64,000 bases of DNA from a virus. Positions 10,683 through 19,185 of the stretch are shown in pieces (position 1 is the first letter of the stretch; the number at the start of each line of letters is the position of its first letter). Both the position numbers and the translations under genes were made by a program. The stretch is taken from IMG/VR virus record IMGVR_UViG_3300021092_000026, positions 1-64,000 of that record; one strand, given 5' to 3'. The notes below the pieces were generated by a model. That model searched no databases. It was not told where the DNA came from and saw only the letters and a program-made list of their open reading frames with translations.

Positions 10683-11867
10683 TTAATAGAATAAACCCAA
10701 TATCTGATTTAAACTTGCGAAAGCACCAGTTAGTTTAAGCGTCCTACCCTTATACACAAAAACAACACCCTCATTCGGAACAATTTTATCAGGCCCGCCG
10801 ATTGCTGCCATTCTTTCAAGTTCTAATTGTAATTTCTTTATCTTTTTTTCATCCCCACCGGCTTTAACATCTTTAATGATTTGGTCTAATCTTTGCTTTA
10901 TACTTCGGGTTGCTTCATCCGGGTTTACTGTTAATACTGAACTCATCAACGATAACACTTCCGCACCAACACCTAAAAATATATCTTCAAATGGTCTAAT
11001 ATTATCTTTTGTTATTTTTTGATGGTCGTTTTTATCTACACCCACCGCCCAATCTAATACCTTTTGAGATTTAATGTTATTTGTACCCAATTTAAAACTT
11101 TTATCAAAAAATGCCCACCTTTTTACCAATCCATCCTTTGTTGATTTATCTAATTTTTCAGGTGAATTTTTATCTATGTAATCTCCCCACCAAGCCTGAT
11201 GATATTCTGCAGGCCCATCACTATCTTTTAAACCAAATTTAGATTGTAAGTTTTTTAACATCCCCAAATACTTTGGTTGTAATTTTTCTAAATTTACATC
11301 TTTTGGTAATTGTGTAATTGGTGGCCCTTGTATCTTATACTTTTCTTGTACATCCTGATTGATTTGTTTAATCATCCCCGCCAATATCTTTGCATCAGAT
11401 TGGTCGGCCCCAATCGCCACACCGGATTCATCGTATTCATTTGTATTATGAAATATTAAAAGAGCCTGTCCATAAGGTATTACATTTACCGATGTTGGAT
11501 AAATAACTTCTAAGTTCATAAACTTTTTACCTTGCGCAAATATCTTATCTCGTTGTGCTTTTGATAACCCCTTCACAGCCGTTTCTAAATCCCTCATAGC
11601 AAAGTTGTAAGCATCGGTTAGTCCACCCCTACCTCCGAACTTTGAAGCAACATCAGCGATTGACATTGCGTTTTCACCACTGTTAGCAAGGTGTCCCTTG
11701 TTCCTTGCAGCGATTAATCCCTTATCATCTCTCCAACTAATAGCGAGTGCCTGTCCATCTGTATTATGAATTAATATACCATTTGCATAATAACATGAAA
11801 AATTATCAACTTTTATGTCATATCTGGTCTGAACTTTGTTTATTGGTTTTATTGATTTAATTTTCAT
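10683..11867 (-). CDS. Intein C-half fused to C-terminal part of a ligase-type nucleotidyltransferase
   Basis: Residues 1-35 are a split-intein C-half. They contain block F (TRYDIKVDNFSCYYANGIL) and end in block G (ILIHN), with the penultimate His and terminal Asn needed for cyclisation. The C-extein starts with Thr36 as the +1 nucleophile, and continues TDGQALAISW, ARNKGHL, FMNLEVIYP (116-125), EGVVFVYKGR (366-375) and LKLTG (377-381). These fit ligase/nucleotidyltransferase motifs I (DG part), Ia-II, III, IV and V. After trans-splicing to the gene at 12655-14229 the mature protein would have about 785 residues. Splicing is predicted from the motifs, not shown. Confidence 0.9.
   Translation of the reverse strand: MKIKSIKPINKVQTRYDIKVDNFSCYYANGILIHNTDGQALAISWRDDKGLIAARNKGHLANSGENAMSIADVASKFGGRGGLTDAYNFAMRDLETAVKGLSKAQRDKIFAQGKKFMNLEVIYPTSVNVIPYGQALLIFHNTNEYDESGVAIGADQSDAKILAGMIKQINQDVQEKYKIQGPPITQLPKDVNLEKLQPKYLGMLKNLQSKFGLKDSDGPAEYHQAWWGDYIDKNSPEKLDKSTKDGLVKRWAFFDKSFKLGTNNIKSQKVLDWAVGVDKNDHQKITKDNIRPFEDIFLGVGAEVLSLMSSVLTVNPDEATRSIKQRLDQIIKDVKAGGDEKKIKKLQLELERMAAIGGPDKIVPNEGVVFVYKGRTLKLTGAFASLNQILGLFY
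11763..11867 (-). other. Split intein C-half (35 residues)
   Basis: Intein blocks F and G with terminal His-Asn directly followed by extein Thr. The length is close to the roughly 36-residue C-halves of naturally split DnaE inteins. Confidence 0.9.
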
Positions 11868-12591
11868 ATCTAATCCTTATAAATTTACAGCCCAATAACT
11901 TTTCTATTTTTTCCTGTCGTATTACATCTCTTTTTCGAAGTGAACCATCTTTATTAAAATGATGCGATTCATCTATTTCAATTACAGCGTTTTTTTCTTT
12001 ATCATACCCATCCAAATAATAACCAAGCCCTTCAACATAATACTCACCACCATTTTCCGCGTGTTGGAAGTTATATCCATATTGCTTACCATACTCTTCT
12101 ATAATTGGTATAGCATTTACATTGTAATTTGGAAATAAAGACTTAAATGCTCCAGAAAATCGTATTTTTTCTTTAACTTTTGGGTGCTGAAAAATGTTAT
12201 CAACTCCATATTTTTCTTTAACAGTTTTATTTCTTTTGTGAAATATTACTGTCCCTTTAGATAATGGGTTTATTGCACCATATTTTTTCAAATTAGTTTT
12301 TTCAATTCTATCTCTATACCCATCCATATAATGAGATTGTTTTACATTTCTAACAGGTATATTTAATCGTCTAAGTTGTTTGTTCACTATTGTAGATGAA
12401 CTCCACCCATTTTCATTAGCAATTTGTAGCGCAGATTTACCATTTATTATATATTCAGTATATAACATATCATAATTAAATAACCCATCACGCCATTCTT
12501 TAAATTTACCACAATTTCTTATATGACCATTTATACTCAAACTACTTTTAATTTGAAGTTTATTACCACAATATTTACAAGCTTCTTCCAT
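11857..12591 (-). CDS. Free-standing Vsr-like/EDxHD homing endonuclease
   Basis: 244 residues located between the two split-intein genes and overlapping the C-half gene by 11 nt. The N-terminus is a CCHC zinc finger (C5, C8, H23, C27). The middle has a helix-turn-helix-like region (ALQIANENGWSSSTIV) and two NUMOD-like repeats (TNLKKYGAINPLSKG and TVKEKYGVDNIFQHP). The C-terminal Vsr-type core has D194, E205, D207, HH210-211 and D215, ending LLGCKFIRIR. This fits the homing-endonuclease family described with fractured genes and split inteins, which cleaves uninterrupted alleles to spread the element. The cleavage target is inferred to be the intein-free gene. Confidence 0.88.
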   Translation of the reverse strand: MEEACKYCGNKLQIKSSLSINGHIRNCGKFKEWRDGLFNYDMLYTEYIINGKSALQIANENGWSSSTIVNKQLRRLNIPVRNVKQSHYMDGYRDRIEKTNLKKYGAINPLSKGTVIFHKRNKTVKEKYGVDNIFQHPKVKEKIRFSGAFKSLFPNYNVNAIPIIEEYGKQYGYNFQHAENGGEYYVEGLGYYLDGYDKEKNAVIEIDESHHFNKDGSLRKRDVIRQEKIEKLLGCKFIRIRYEN

Positions 12592-12609
12592 AGTATGTAT
12601 TATTTTATA

Positions 12610-12617
12610 TAAATATG
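12610..12617 (-). promoter_or_regulatory. Late-type promoter element CATATTTA for the homing endonuclease
   Basis: CATATTTATATAAAATAAT in the coding direction, in the 63-nt gap after the intein N-half stop and 18 nt before the endonuclease ATG. Confidence 0.4.
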
Positions 12618-12654
12618 TGATTTGTGAAAAAACCGATGGTTGTTGTGTGTATTT

Positions 12655-12951
12655 TTACAATGTTTTCAATTCCATATCTTCGGTCAAATCTTTGGCCTGA
12701 ACATACCCTATACCCTCTACATACATTCTATGATTTGGCGTTACTTGAATGGTTTTACCATCTTCCAGTTCTATTTCTAACCACTCATCAGTATCATCAT
12801 TATTAAAAGATGCCATAATACCCATAAATTCATTATTACCAGTTACTTCATTAAATGATAATACCAAATCGGTAAGTTTATTATCCACAAACTCCGATAT
12901 AGGTATGTTTCCATTATTTTTAGTTTCAATAATACTATCACCCGCTATACA
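12655..12951 (-). other. Split intein N-half (98 residues)
   Basis: Begins with Cys (codon at 12951-12949) and contains block A (CIAGDSIIET), TPNHRM of block B with the conserved Thr and His, and GYVQAKDL. It ends without endonuclease domain. Length is close to the roughly 100-residue N-halves of natural split inteins. Confidence 0.9.
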
Positions 12952-14229
12952 CTTTTCTGTTGTTAATTTCAAATCACCTTTTAGGGCTTTTGTTATTATA
13001 TTTTTTAAATCACCAAAAGTTAAACCCAATTCCATATCAAATGGGTGATTCATGTGTCCGTATGCGCCACCCTCTAACAAAAACTTAGAAAACTTTCTGC
13101 CAATTTTTTCTAATAATCTAAATTGTCTATCGTTAATTCTCTTTACTTTAGTATTGGTAGACCATTCAACAATTTCGTGTCCTAATCTTGCATAAGCTTC
13201 TTGTAACTCTTCATCCTTTACTCCTGTAATATCTACTGTATTATTAAGTGGTGCATCCGGTGGTGCTGCATCCAATGGTGATGTTGCTGTATCAGCCGTT
13301 ACAAAATCTTCGGTTTCAGGAATATCTAAAAGGTCATCCATTGTAAATACTTTTCTAGTACTACTATATTGGTAAAAATCCCCAGTACCTTTTGCGGATT
13401 TTTTGACCATTACATCTGCTTTTGGAAAATCTAATTGTACATATCCACCATTAACAAACCAATAATCGTTTTTTTGTGCTTGCTTACTTAATCCCAAAAC
13501 CCTTCGTTTATTAGGAACTACATACATTGCGTCAGGTTCACCTGCATCTCCCCCATATCCACCACTTAGTGTTGACTCAGTTAATGCTTTTATATTAAAT
13601 GTCTTAAAGAAAGATTCCATTATGGATTCTACTGCTATCAACTTTTTTGTTATTAAGTTGTATATTTTGGGATTAAATTTTGGATAAGCTTTTTTAAATC
13701 CTGCTTTTCTTTTTGATTCATCTCCCGCTGATAACCACTTTCTTACATCCGTTCCACTTATTGAGTTTGCCTGCATTGGTGATGCGTAAACATAACCATT
13801 TTCTTCATACCCACTAGCAGGTTTGAATCCGTCTCCACTATGAAACTTTTTGAAATATTTACCACCCAATCGTTGTACATCCTTTTCTCCTACCACAGTT
13901 ACAAACGCTGTTGTTTTGGGTGAAAATCCACTTAATACTTCGGTTGGGTTATATGGGTTTTTTACTTGAACTACTTTATTTGAAGGGATATCAAACATTG
14001 TAGTCATTATTTTTTTCTTCTCCAAAAAGTTAAATGGGTCTTTCGGTCCACCACTTTTATTGGATGTTCCAATCCAAACCTTATCTTTACCAAACTTTTG
14101 AACTAAATGTGAGTATGTTCCATAGTGTCCTTTATGAAAAGGTTGAAACCTTCCTGCATATACAACCACTATATCTTTTATTTCTTCGGTTAATATTTCT
14201 TTAACCCACTCTTTTATTAAATTTCCCAT
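12655..14229 (-). CDS. Nucleotidylyltransferase N-extein fused to intein N-half
   Basis: 524 residues: 426 of extein followed by a 98-residue intein N-half. Residues 20-165 are a cytidylyltransferase-like nucleotidyltransferase with GRFQPFHKGH (HxGH at 32-35) and ISGTDVR (157-163). Residues 205-426 are less clear, ending KGDLKLTTEK. The intein starts at Cys427 (CIAGDSIIET, block A) and has block B around TPNHRMYVEG. The extein ends with Lys426, which after splicing precedes TDG and forms ligase motif I (K-T-D-G). The N-terminus WVKEILTEE has a gp21-like (I/L)xE site. ATG lies exactly 5 nt after TATATTTA. Confidence 0.9.
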   Translation of the reverse strand: MGNLIKEWVKEILTEEIKDIVVVYAGRFQPFHKGHYGTYSHLVQKFGKDKVWIGTSNKSGGPKDPFNFLEKKKIMTTMFDIPSNKVVQVKNPYNPTEVLSGFSPKTTAFVTVVGEKDVQRLGGKYFKKFHSGDGFKPASGYEENGYVYASPMQANSISGTDVRKWLSAGDESKRKAGFKKAYPKFNPKIYNLITKKLIAVESIMESFFKTFNIKALTESTLSGGYGGDAGEPDAMYVVPNKRRVLGLSKQAQKNDYWFVNGGYVQLDFPKADVMVKKSAKGTGDFYQYSSTRKVFTMDDLLDIPETEDFVTADTATSPLDAAPPDAPLNNTVDITGVKDEELQEAYARLGHEIVEWSTNTKVKRINDRQFRLLEKIGRKFSKFLLEGGAYGHMNHPFDMELGLTFGDLKNIITKALKGDLKLTTEKCIAGDSIIETKNNGNIPISEFVDNKLTDLVLSFNEVTGNNEFMGIMASFNNDDTDEWLEIELEDGKTIQVTPNHRMYVEGIGYVQAKDLTEDMELKTL

Positions 14230-16044: not shown

Positions 16045-19000
16045 TTATAAGTATTTTATTGAAGAAAAAGAATTTATTTTATTTATATCAATTATTTGGT
16101 CTACCATATCCCTCGTTTTATCTATATGGGATATTGTAATAATAAAATCAAATTGAGTTTTTAAATAATCAAATAATAAATACAAAGAATTAAAATTATC
16201 AGTATCCAACGAACCAAACCCCTCATCAATAGCAATAAAATTGGGACGTGGTAAGTTAGATACACTTATCAATGCGGTCCTGATTGCTATTGAACTCACA
16301 AACTTTTCCATACCACTTGTCAACTCTAATGGCCAGTATCTATCATCACCATAACAAATATATGAATTTATGTTTTTACCATCCGTATTTAATATGATTT
16401 GAAAATCCACTATAGGTTGAAGAATGTTGTTGATTTCAATTTCTAACTTTGGTAATATTTCTGATATTAATCCATATGGAATACCATCTCGCTTAACTGC
16501 TGATAAGTAATATTCATATCCATTGTATTTTAATTCCATTTGATTTAACTTTTCAATGGACTCATTTACAGATTCAATTGTATTTTTTTGAACACGTAAC
16601 TCACCCAACAAATCTATTAAATCGGTTGTAACCCTATTTAATTCAGATTGAGTTTCTACTCTTTTATTTTTCAAAATACTAATTTCATCGTTAAGTTTAA
16701 TATTGAATTCAACCGATTTTTCTTGCTTTTTGGCTTTTTCAATATCGGATGATATTTTTTCATATTGGACTTCGTATTGAGTATAATCAGATTTAGCATC
16801 ATTTAATTCCGATAAAAGATTATAATATTTACGGTTTGTTTCTTGCTCCTTTTCTTTGACCTGATTCACCTTTTCTAAATCTGCTTTTACATCACACGCC
16901 CTCTGCCTTACAACCTTTTCAGATAATTCCGTTTCTAATTCAGTTATCTTTTTAGTAAGAGATAGTATTTTGTTTTCTAACTCCAAACTCTGTTTTGCAA
17001 ATGGAGTGTTTTTGTTTTTAACACAGTGTTCACAATTATCATCGTATGTAAAAGAACCAATACCCTCCAAGTGTTTTTTAGTATGAGATAAATCAATCTG
17101 ATACTTTGATATGGTTTGCTTTACCAATGTTATATCCCTATCTAATACACGCCACTCATTATCTTTTAGTTTTAATTCATCCAAATTGTATTCTTTGTAG
17201 AACTCACCAATTCTTTCAAGCTTTTCTTCTAATGGTTTTACCTGATATTGTAACTCCCTTATATTGGATGATATTACTCCTGTTGAATTTCTACAATCTT
17301 TTAATTGGGTATTTAATACTTCCAAATTTAAAGTTTTATCCACAACAATTAACTTTGCAGATTTATCTTCAATTTGCTGGTTTATAACCCCAAGCCCATT
17401 TTCAAGATTTACTTTTTCAGTTTCTAAATTTGAAATAGAACCTGTTATGGATTGGACTACCATTTCAGCTTTTGCTAACTTTGTTGGAAAATCTTGTCCC
17501 TTATAATCTTTTAATAAGGTTGATAATTCTTTTATTTCTTCACTTGCTACTGAATACAATTGTTCAAAAACATCCATATCCAAAAATTGAGCAAGTAATT
17601 CTTTTCTTTCTTTTTGCGATTTATCAATAAACCCACTATTGTTAAATTGAGTTGATAATGCCGTCAATATAAAATCATCGTATGTTCCTACATACTGTCT
17701 AATGACTGAATTTGTATCCCGCCTTTCATCCCCATTCAAACTTTCAATATCCCCCAAATCATTGAATGTGTAAAATTGAGTATCAACCTTTACAGTTCCT
17801 TTTTTTGTAGATTTATTTGCAGTTCTTTCAATTACATAATCCCTACCATTTAATTCAAAAATAAATTTACAATAAAAATTCTTTTTAGAATAATTCATCA
17901 CATCAACTGCTTTTGATGTTCGGGAACACTTATCAAAAATACAAAATGATAAAGCATCCCATAAAGAAGATTTACCACTTGCGTTAGGCGCAAATACACC
18001 ATACGCCCCCTTCATATTCTGAAAGTTTATATGGTTATTCTCACCATAAGAAAACATATTGGAAAACTCAAAACTTTTTGGTATCCAAACGGAACTTCTA
18101 ATTGCATATGGATTTACAATCTTTGAGTTTATATCGGCGTTTATACCCTTAACAACTTCTAATAATTCTGAATCAATTCCAAATTTTTGGCTTAAATAAT
18201 CCTCTAATAGTTTATTTTGAAAACCAACATCTCTTACATTTTGTAGAGTTACATGTTCACGCTTCCCAACCTGATTAGTGGATAAAACTTTTTGAATACT
18301 CAGCTCTTCTATATCATATTTCTTTTTCAAAGAAGATATAACCTTATTTAGTTGGGATGTGGTTGTATCTTTAACCCTCAATCGTAATCTTGGTTTTGGG
18401 CAAATATAATTGCTTGATACAATTTTACCATCCTCAATATCAATTGTTCCATACCCATACTCATTCTCAATATGAACGAATGTAGAGGACTTTGTGGGTA
18501 AATCCCATACCAATATCCCATGTTCAGGATAAATTGATTCTGAATGGTTCTGTGTAATCAGGGAGCCTGGATACTTTATCGTATCTACACCTGATACTGA
18601 ATTATTGGGGACATGAATATCCCCTAATAAAGTAATATCATATCCTCTAAAAGAATCTACTGTAACTTTTTTATTATCAATCTTAAATCCATGTTCGGTT
18701 TGTATCCCATCAACGGGTCCGTGATAAAGAGCAATCTTAAAATCTCCATTAACATCTGAACTATTTGTAAAACCATCTGATGAATCAAACACCGATTTAT
18801 GTGCAAATGTAATACCACCAAATTCAAAGGTTGTAGTGTTTTTATAATAAAATAAGTTTGGATGATTTAACGCATCAACAATTGGTGATAACGCATCTAA
18901 TCGAGAAGGATTATTTAGGTTTGCATCGTGATTACCGGGGATTAAAATAGTAGGCATAATATCCGATAAACTTCTTAAAAAGTTTTGAGTCATATGAACC

Positions 19001-19185
19001 ACTTCAGGTGTCATATCGGTTTTAGCATGAACAATATCCCCAGCCAATACAATAGCTGAATCATTAGTAACAACCGATTTTAGGTAATCATATAAACGAT
19101 TAAAGACTAACGAATATTCTTTGTGTCTCTTTAAGTTTCGTATATGAACATCGGCAATATGATAAATCTTATTTAACTTTTTCAT
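16045..19185 (-). CDS. gp47-gp46: Fused Mre11-Rad50 recombination nuclease (T4 gp47-gp46)
   Basis: One 1046-residue chain carrying both subunits of the phage recombination nuclease. Residues 1-350 are a calcineurin-like phosphoesterase (ADVH 11-14, AGD 48-50, GNHD 84-87, YHGP 154-157, GDIH 188-191). Residues 370-1046 are a Rad50/SbcC-type ATPase with Walker A (APNASGKSS, 399-407), a coiled coil interrupted by the zinc-hook CEHC (718-721), signature LTSGMEKF (955-962) and Walker B FIAIDEG (983-989). T4 encodes these as separate gp47 (339) and gp46 (560). No stop or frameshift is visible at the junction. Overlaps the primase gene by 4 nt (ATGA). Confidence 0.93.
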   Translation of the reverse strand: MKKLNKIYHIADVHIRNLKRHKEYSLVFNRLYDYLKSVVTNDSAIVLAGDIVHAKTDMTPEVVHMTQNFLRSLSDIMPTILIPGNHDANLNNPSRLDALSPIVDALNHPNLFYYKNTTTFEFGGITFAHKSVFDSSDGFTNSSDVNGDFKIALYHGPVDGIQTEHGFKIDNKKVTVDSFRGYDITLLGDIHVPNNSVSGVDTIKYPGSLITQNHSESIYPEHGILVWDLPTKSSTFVHIENEYGYGTIDIEDGKIVSSNYICPKPRLRLRVKDTTTSQLNKVISSLKKKYDIEELSIQKVLSTNQVGKREHVTLQNVRDVGFQNKLLEDYLSQKFGIDSELLEVVKGINADINSKIVNPYAIRSSVWIPKSFEFSNMFSYGENNHINFQNMKGAYGVFAPNASGKSSLWDALSFCIFDKCSRTSKAVDVMNYSKKNFYCKFIFELNGRDYVIERTANKSTKKGTVKVDTQFYTFNDLGDIESLNGDERRDTNSVIRQYVGTYDDFILTALSTQFNNSGFIDKSQKERKELLAQFLDMDVFEQLYSVASEEIKELSTLLKDYKGQDFPTKLAKAEMVVQSITGSISNLETEKVNLENGLGVINQQIEDKSAKLIVVDKTLNLEVLNTQLKDCRNSTGVISSNIRELQYQVKPLEEKLERIGEFYKEYNLDELKLKDNEWRVLDRDITLVKQTISKYQIDLSHTKKHLEGIGSFTYDDNCEHCVKNKNTPFAKQSLELENKILSLTKKITELETELSEKVVRQRACDVKADLEKVNQVKEKEQETNRKYYNLLSELNDAKSDYTQYEVQYEKISSDIEKAKKQEKSVEFNIKLNDEISILKNKRVETQSELNRVTTDLIDLLGELRVQKNTIESVNESIEKLNQMELKYNGYEYYLSAVKRDGIPYGLISEILPKLEIEINNILQPIVDFQIILNTDGKNINSYICYGDDRYWPLELTSGMEKFVSSIAIRTALISVSNLPRPNFIAIDEGFGSLDTDNFNSLYLLFDYLKTQFDFIITISHIDKTRDMVDQIIDINKINSFSSIKYL

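Follow-up and report, generated by a model that had tools for sequence, protein, structure and literature searches.

The stretch analysed here, called the window, comprises 64,000 nucleotides (nt) of the IMG/VR virus record IMGVR_UViG_3300021092_000026 (positions 1-64,000), a portion of a 74,851-base record, and serves as the reference for the positions below. On its minus strand, an enzyme gene is present as two separate genes, each of which carries one half of a split intein, with a putative homing endonuclease gene between them. The upstream gene (N-gene) is an open reading frame (ORF) of 524 amino acids (aa) at 14229-12655. Its first 426 aa make up the N-extein (12952-14229), which ends with LTTEK, the last residue being the presumed catalytic Lys426 (codon 12954-12952). 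The other 98 aa form the N-terminal intein half (IntN, 12655-12951), starting at Cys427 (CIAGDSII, followed later by TPNHRMYV) and closed by a stop codon. A non-coding leader (12592-12654) separates IntN from the endonuclease ORF (12591-11857, 244 aa), the end of which overlaps the start of the downstream gene by 11 nt, suggesting coupled translation. This downstream gene (C-gene, 11867-10683, 394 aa) begins with the C-terminal intein half of 35 aa (IntC, 11763-11867, from MKIKS to ILIHN), and the C-extein of 359 aa with its stop codon follows (10683-11762).

The N-extein contains an HxGH nucleotidyltransferase domain, which resembles cytidylyltransferases and NMN-adenylyltransferases, a linker, and the first 40 residues of a ligase-like domain. 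The remaining extein is this ligase-like domain of about 400 residues. The C-extein supplies T-D-G of its motif I, with the Thr as the +1 residue, and motifs Ia (AARN), III (FMNLEV), IV (NEGVVF) and V (KLTG). Joined exteins would amount to 785 aa and read TTEK-TDGQ at the junction (hyphens mark the joint here and in the next paragraph). The sequence-only reading of this DNA had placed the IntN start, the His-Asn end of IntC and the extein lengths as given here, and all of its coordinates, residues and numbers hold.

That reading also supposed that homologues contiguous at this exact point exist, which is the case. An IMG/VR scan with the C-gene collected 80 loci, and further fractured loci were obtained by scans with the endonuclease and IntN. 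The corresponding gene is a single open frame across the joint in about 70 of the 80 loci. The four nearest uninterrupted homologues share about 90% identity with each of the two exteins and have LTREK-TDGQALAISW at the joint, and homologues of just 35-50% identity have EK-T/L-DG at the same position. After removal of copies, there are 12 distinct fractured alleles, all split at one codon junction (AAR-ACN), and 108 distinct uninterrupted alleles contiguous at the joint. Because the former share one junction and the latter are contiguous there, chance is ruled out for the joint. All 108 uninterrupted alleles have motif I, which is partly built in because a motif I pattern served to gather them; it carries more weight that the Lys, Asp and Gly of motif I are invariant in alignments of 21 to 41 diverse members.

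The joined intein matches Pfam Intein_splicing above the cut-off (44.6 bits vs 35.8, E = 1.8e-11), and among solved sequences the NrdJ-1 split intein (PDB 8ubs, E = 3.6e-13) comes closest. The residue set of a class 1 split intein is complete, with Cys1, TxxH in block B, a penultimate His, a terminal Asn and the +1 Thr. Cys1, TPNH, the final HN and the +1 Thr are unvarying in all of the 12 distinct fractured alleles; some of these residues belonged to the allele-collecting pattern, and the loci themselves were found by similarity searches. The division into about 100 and 35-40 residues is a common natural form of split inteins (PMC11923092). The ratio of nonsynonymous to synonymous divergence (dN/dS, Nei-Gojobori) of IntN and IntC is 0.10-0.20 in every compared pair, including the endonuclease-free allele L008. 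Such values mark purifying selection on the intein halves. No second intein was found within the window. In another locus (L054), an ORF running from base 1 encodes a different protein with an IntC-like stretch (E = 8.9e-05) that ends in ILVHN and continues into KRNQG.

We are confident, short of certainty, that a mobile split mini-intein with a homing endonuclease has fractured the gene within the K-T-D-G motif and that trans-splicing would build the ligase-like active site. The element, composed of IntN, IntC and the endonuclease ORF, would be placed between the Lys and Thr codons of K-T-D-G. Its host would be a T4-like phage gene that encodes an HxGH nucleotidyltransferase together with a covalent-nucleotidyltransferase (RNA-ligase-like) domain in one fusion protein. 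The N-gene and C-gene would be translated separately, and IntN and IntC would associate and splice in trans, with the chemistry predicted from Cys1, the TPNH block, the His-Asn end and the +1 Thr. Splicing would join Lys426 to Thr-Asp-Gly and thereby create the active site, as the conserved residues and the selection suggest, and the enzyme should exist only after splicing of the two protein halves. The element would be tolerated by the host gene because splicing restores the protein scar-free. Uninterrupted alleles are most likely the target of the endonuclease, which would cut them at the strongly conserved codon stretch; repair would then copy the element in (homing).

The K-x-D-G stretch was taken as ligase motif I in the sequence-only reading. 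Five motifs, EKxDG (I), ARN (Ia), E (III), EG..F (IV) and KxTG (V), are kept in the correct order across members down to 36% identity. The patterns of Ia, III and IV occur, in order, in 108, 108 and 103 of the 108 distinct uninterrupted alleles, respectively. The Pfam model PF09414 (RNA_ligase) matches L065, L197 and a gene of Microcystis phage Mel-JY01 below its cut-off (E = 0.0083-0.033); judging from the reported offsets, the L065 motif lysine occupies the same profile position as Lys35 of T4 RNA ligase 2 (Rnl2). When aligned with the T4 Rnl2 family by hhalign, REKTDGQ is placed on REKIHGT. Some relatives add a P-loop kinase-like domain (L058) or an HD domain (L036) to the HxGH and ligase-like domains in one protein, and these fusions suggestively resemble RNA-repair enzymes. 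In L193 and L196, the ligase-like gene stands alone, and its neighbor in L193 encodes an HxGH-like motif. A scan that used the distant ligase-like L193 as query yielded two loci only.

Several results weigh against a ligase. No model in Pfam, NCBIfam or PHROG matches the domain above cut-off, nor does it have a PHROG match of its own. The best PF09414 score is 16.7 bits against a cut-off of 27, and the hhalign match is not significant (E = 0.11). Motif V has an invariant first Lys but is K-x-T-G rather than K-x-K. Two AlphaFold models of the domain, folded from the uninterrupted homologue L009 in place of the joined exteins, have a predicted local distance difference test (pLDDT) score of 78.5 and 81.8, with the motif I loop below 50. 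When Foldseek was run against the PDB, model 1 found Trl1 first and Rnl2 second without significance (E = 0.23-0.29), and model 2 found no significant match, ligases being absent. A structure search of a viral library returned mainly relatives of the domain. PDB profile searches with ligase-domain alignments gave only eS6 and similar matches, which were judged spurious.

The domain could accordingly be something other than a ligase, in which K-x-D-G and the other motifs are conserved for a different reason and the break falls in another conserved loop. The missing model, the non-significant PDB profile and fold searches and the non-canonical motif V favor this, as does a stretch of about 245 residues, much of it helical, between motifs III and IV. 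On the other side are the order of the five motifs, the invariance of the motif I Lys, Asp and Gly down to 36% identity, the register of motif I with T4 Rnl2 (PF09414, hhalign) and the kinase or HD domains fused in relatives. We consider a non-ligase unlikely, and this alternative survives best among those weighed here. The domain is probably a ligase, and it likely works like one while not being filed as a member of the family. Of the earlier claim, the conserved motif stands as observed, and the ligase identity of the extein is a supported inference rather than an observed fact. At least 589 stretches encode this ligase-like family in one IMG/VR scan; the locus thus points to an abundant phage family without a Pfam, NCBIfam or PHROGs model.

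Mobility was examined on an extein tree, built from the 40 N-extein residues and the C-extein with the intein excluded (quick search, no bootstrap). The fractured alleles are scattered on it, with 9 state changes, at least 7 of which are forced by strongly supported branches; the count is blind to direction, and that some of the changes may be losses speaks against counting all of them as homing. The DNA of L007 (fractured) and L009 (uninterrupted) is 95-99% identical in 150-base bins on both flanks. Likewise, identity between L019 and L015 is 85-98% along 1,350 bases on the upstream side and 95-100% on the downstream side.

At synonymous sites, the window differs from L006 by 1/155 in the endonuclease vs 73/230 in the C-extein (Fisher p = 8e-18). 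The corresponding values are 5/59 in IntN, 3/22 in IntC and 2/26 in the adjacent 41 N-extein codons, and 14/45 further upstream. Low divergence centred on the element is the trace expected of a recent copying event, a homing signature. Patchy occurrence on the host-gene tree and signs of recent transfer, which together characterize a homing element, are both found here. Homing is inferred from this divergence pattern and from the repeated gain or loss.

Alternatively, the element could be old and vertically inherited, its scatter on the tree reflecting repeated precise loss rather than homing. Parsimony counts do not separate gain from loss, and in some alleles the endonuclease is gone or stopped. 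However, between the window and L006 the extein has diverged far more than the endonuclease and the intein have, which needs a recent transfer, and many precise in-frame losses are unlikely without copying from an empty allele. Inheritance with repeated loss is therefore improbable, and homing remains the preferred account of the scatter.

The endonuclease has an N-terminal Cys/His cluster, DUF7487-related repeats and a C-terminal E-x-D-E-x-x-H...D block. Its library matches are DUF7487 and PHROG homing endonucleases, and a search of the PDB for sequence relatives returned none. Among the 12 distinct fractured alleles, the endonuclease ORF lies between the intein halves in all except L008, where 12 nt separate the IntN stop codon from the IntC start. 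In L094 and L095, a premature stop interrupts it. The leader at 12592-12654 contains CATCGGTTTTTTCACAA, and a similar stretch occurs in distant fractured loci that keep the endonuclease and is absent from L008; perhaps it is a control element arriving together with the endonuclease.

Synonymous divergence of the endonuclease is lower than that of the intein halves, both between the window and L006 (1/155 vs 8/81, indicative p = 0.001) and between the window and L005 (0/155 vs 5/80, indicative p = 0.004); these two comparisons were hand-picked and both use the window sequence, which makes their p-values indicative. Copying of the whole element at once is then insufficient, and separate movement of the endonuclease or recombination within the element would fit. 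Because of these two comparisons and the existence of a split-intein allele without endonuclease (L008), we entertain, with considerable doubt, that the endonuclease may also move independently among split-intein alleles by entering the IntN-IntC gap. If so, the locus would be a living record of endonucleases making and exploiting split inteins.

Other endonuclease variants were seen in these loci. The endonucleases of L007 (1420-2373) and L019 (5043-6011) are 60 residues longer than that of the window and depart from it chiefly in their C-terminal part, as though nuclease domains had been swapped. ORFs outside the ligase-like gene, in L108 (9441-10220) and L096, combine the C-terminal part of the endonuclease with a different N-terminal part. 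In L013 (5086-5880) and at the same place in L014, an in-frame stretch of about 265 codons, lying 40 codons upstream of the joint, encodes an HNH-like endonuclease (zinc finger, REYHLDHK); this insertion has no stop codons and no recognised intron or intein. A related insertion lies just upstream of GGSYGH in L094 and L095, alongside the split intein. No intron was found in L013 or L094 with Rfam.

As for splicing itself, the two genes could encode subunits that assemble without it, the intein tails being dead remnants. Split genes that work unspliced are known, an example being a phage ribonucleotide reductase cited in PMC10448857. Dead remnants would not be expected to keep Cys1, TPNH, HN and the +1 Thr invariant in 12 of 12 alleles, nor a dN/dS as low as that of the intein halves. 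Moreover, a single motif I would have to be divided between the subunits, with the chain broken inside it and about 100 additional residues at that position. Assembly without splicing is thus very improbable, slightly more so than inheritance with repeated loss, and trans-splicing is preferred. That the joint is an assembly artefact, chimeric metagenomic contigs being possible, or that the interruption is an intron instead of a split intein, is in practice already refuted by the identical arrangement in contigs of several samples and in 12 distinct alleles, by the absence of any Rfam intron match in this region of the window at E ≤ 1 and by the intein profile match above cut-off.

The virus record carries genes for portal, large terminase, an SbcC-like exonuclease, primase and baseplate, and judged by this gene content the virus is probably a T4-like tailed phage. 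An uninterrupted relative, 74% identical, is located in a Pelagibacteraceae metagenome-assembled genome from Lake Baikal, which hints at the host group. Elsewhere in the window (16045-19185), one 1046-aa ORF begins with a match to a metallo-phosphoesterase family and ends with one to SbcC, which suggests an SbcD-SbcC fusion protein like T4 gp47-gp46.

The insertion point is strikingly placed, between the presumed catalytic lysine and the remainder of motif I. At this one site, uninterrupted alleles, split inteins with endonuclease, with stopped endonuclease and without endonuclease make up a natural series of unusual completeness, in which some pairs of occupied and unoccupied alleles are nearly identical, so that gain, decay and loss of a fractured gene become directly testable. 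The locus is also a source of new split-intein candidates that have Thr at +1.

Fractured genes, which combine split inteins with free-standing endonucleases, were reportedly described by Dassa et al. in 2009 (NAR 37:2560). In that type, which comes from metagenomes and occurs mainly in phage, a split intein divides an enzyme gene into two parts, and an endonuclease gene lies between them. The same architecture, proposed for this locus by the sequence-only reading, is confirmed here. The differences are the extein, an HxGH/ligase-like fusion, and the break inside motif I. In a literature search of incomplete coverage, no paper describing a split intein in this gene came up. Apparently, the extein and the insertion point are new for the fractured-gene type, the arrangement itself being known.

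The match to NrdJ-1 spans nearly the whole joined intein, with the split at the conventional position, whereas the extein is another one and the sequence has diverged (52.6 bits). With T4 RNA ligase 2 and PF09414, the window domain shares motif I in register and motifs Ia, III and IV in order, but it stays below every cut-off, is fused to an HxGH domain, has K-x-T in motif V and has its motifs III and IV separated by a long, mostly helical segment. I-Bth0305I, of the EDxHD (Vsr-related) type, is a phage homing endonuclease with a modular DNA-binding part (PMC3943268). The C-terminal acidic/His block of the window endonuclease resembles this type as judged by eye only, whereas its library matches are to the other families named above. 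Finally, the MCM-a inteins of haloarchaea and VMA-b inteins are inserted directly behind the conserved active-site lysine of a nucleotide-binding motif (PMC10643990), as is the element in the window. Theirs is the Walker A motif, whereas here it would be ligase motif I, and the MCM inteins of that study hold a LAGLIDADG endonuclease inside the intein, whereas the endonuclease of the window is a separate gene.

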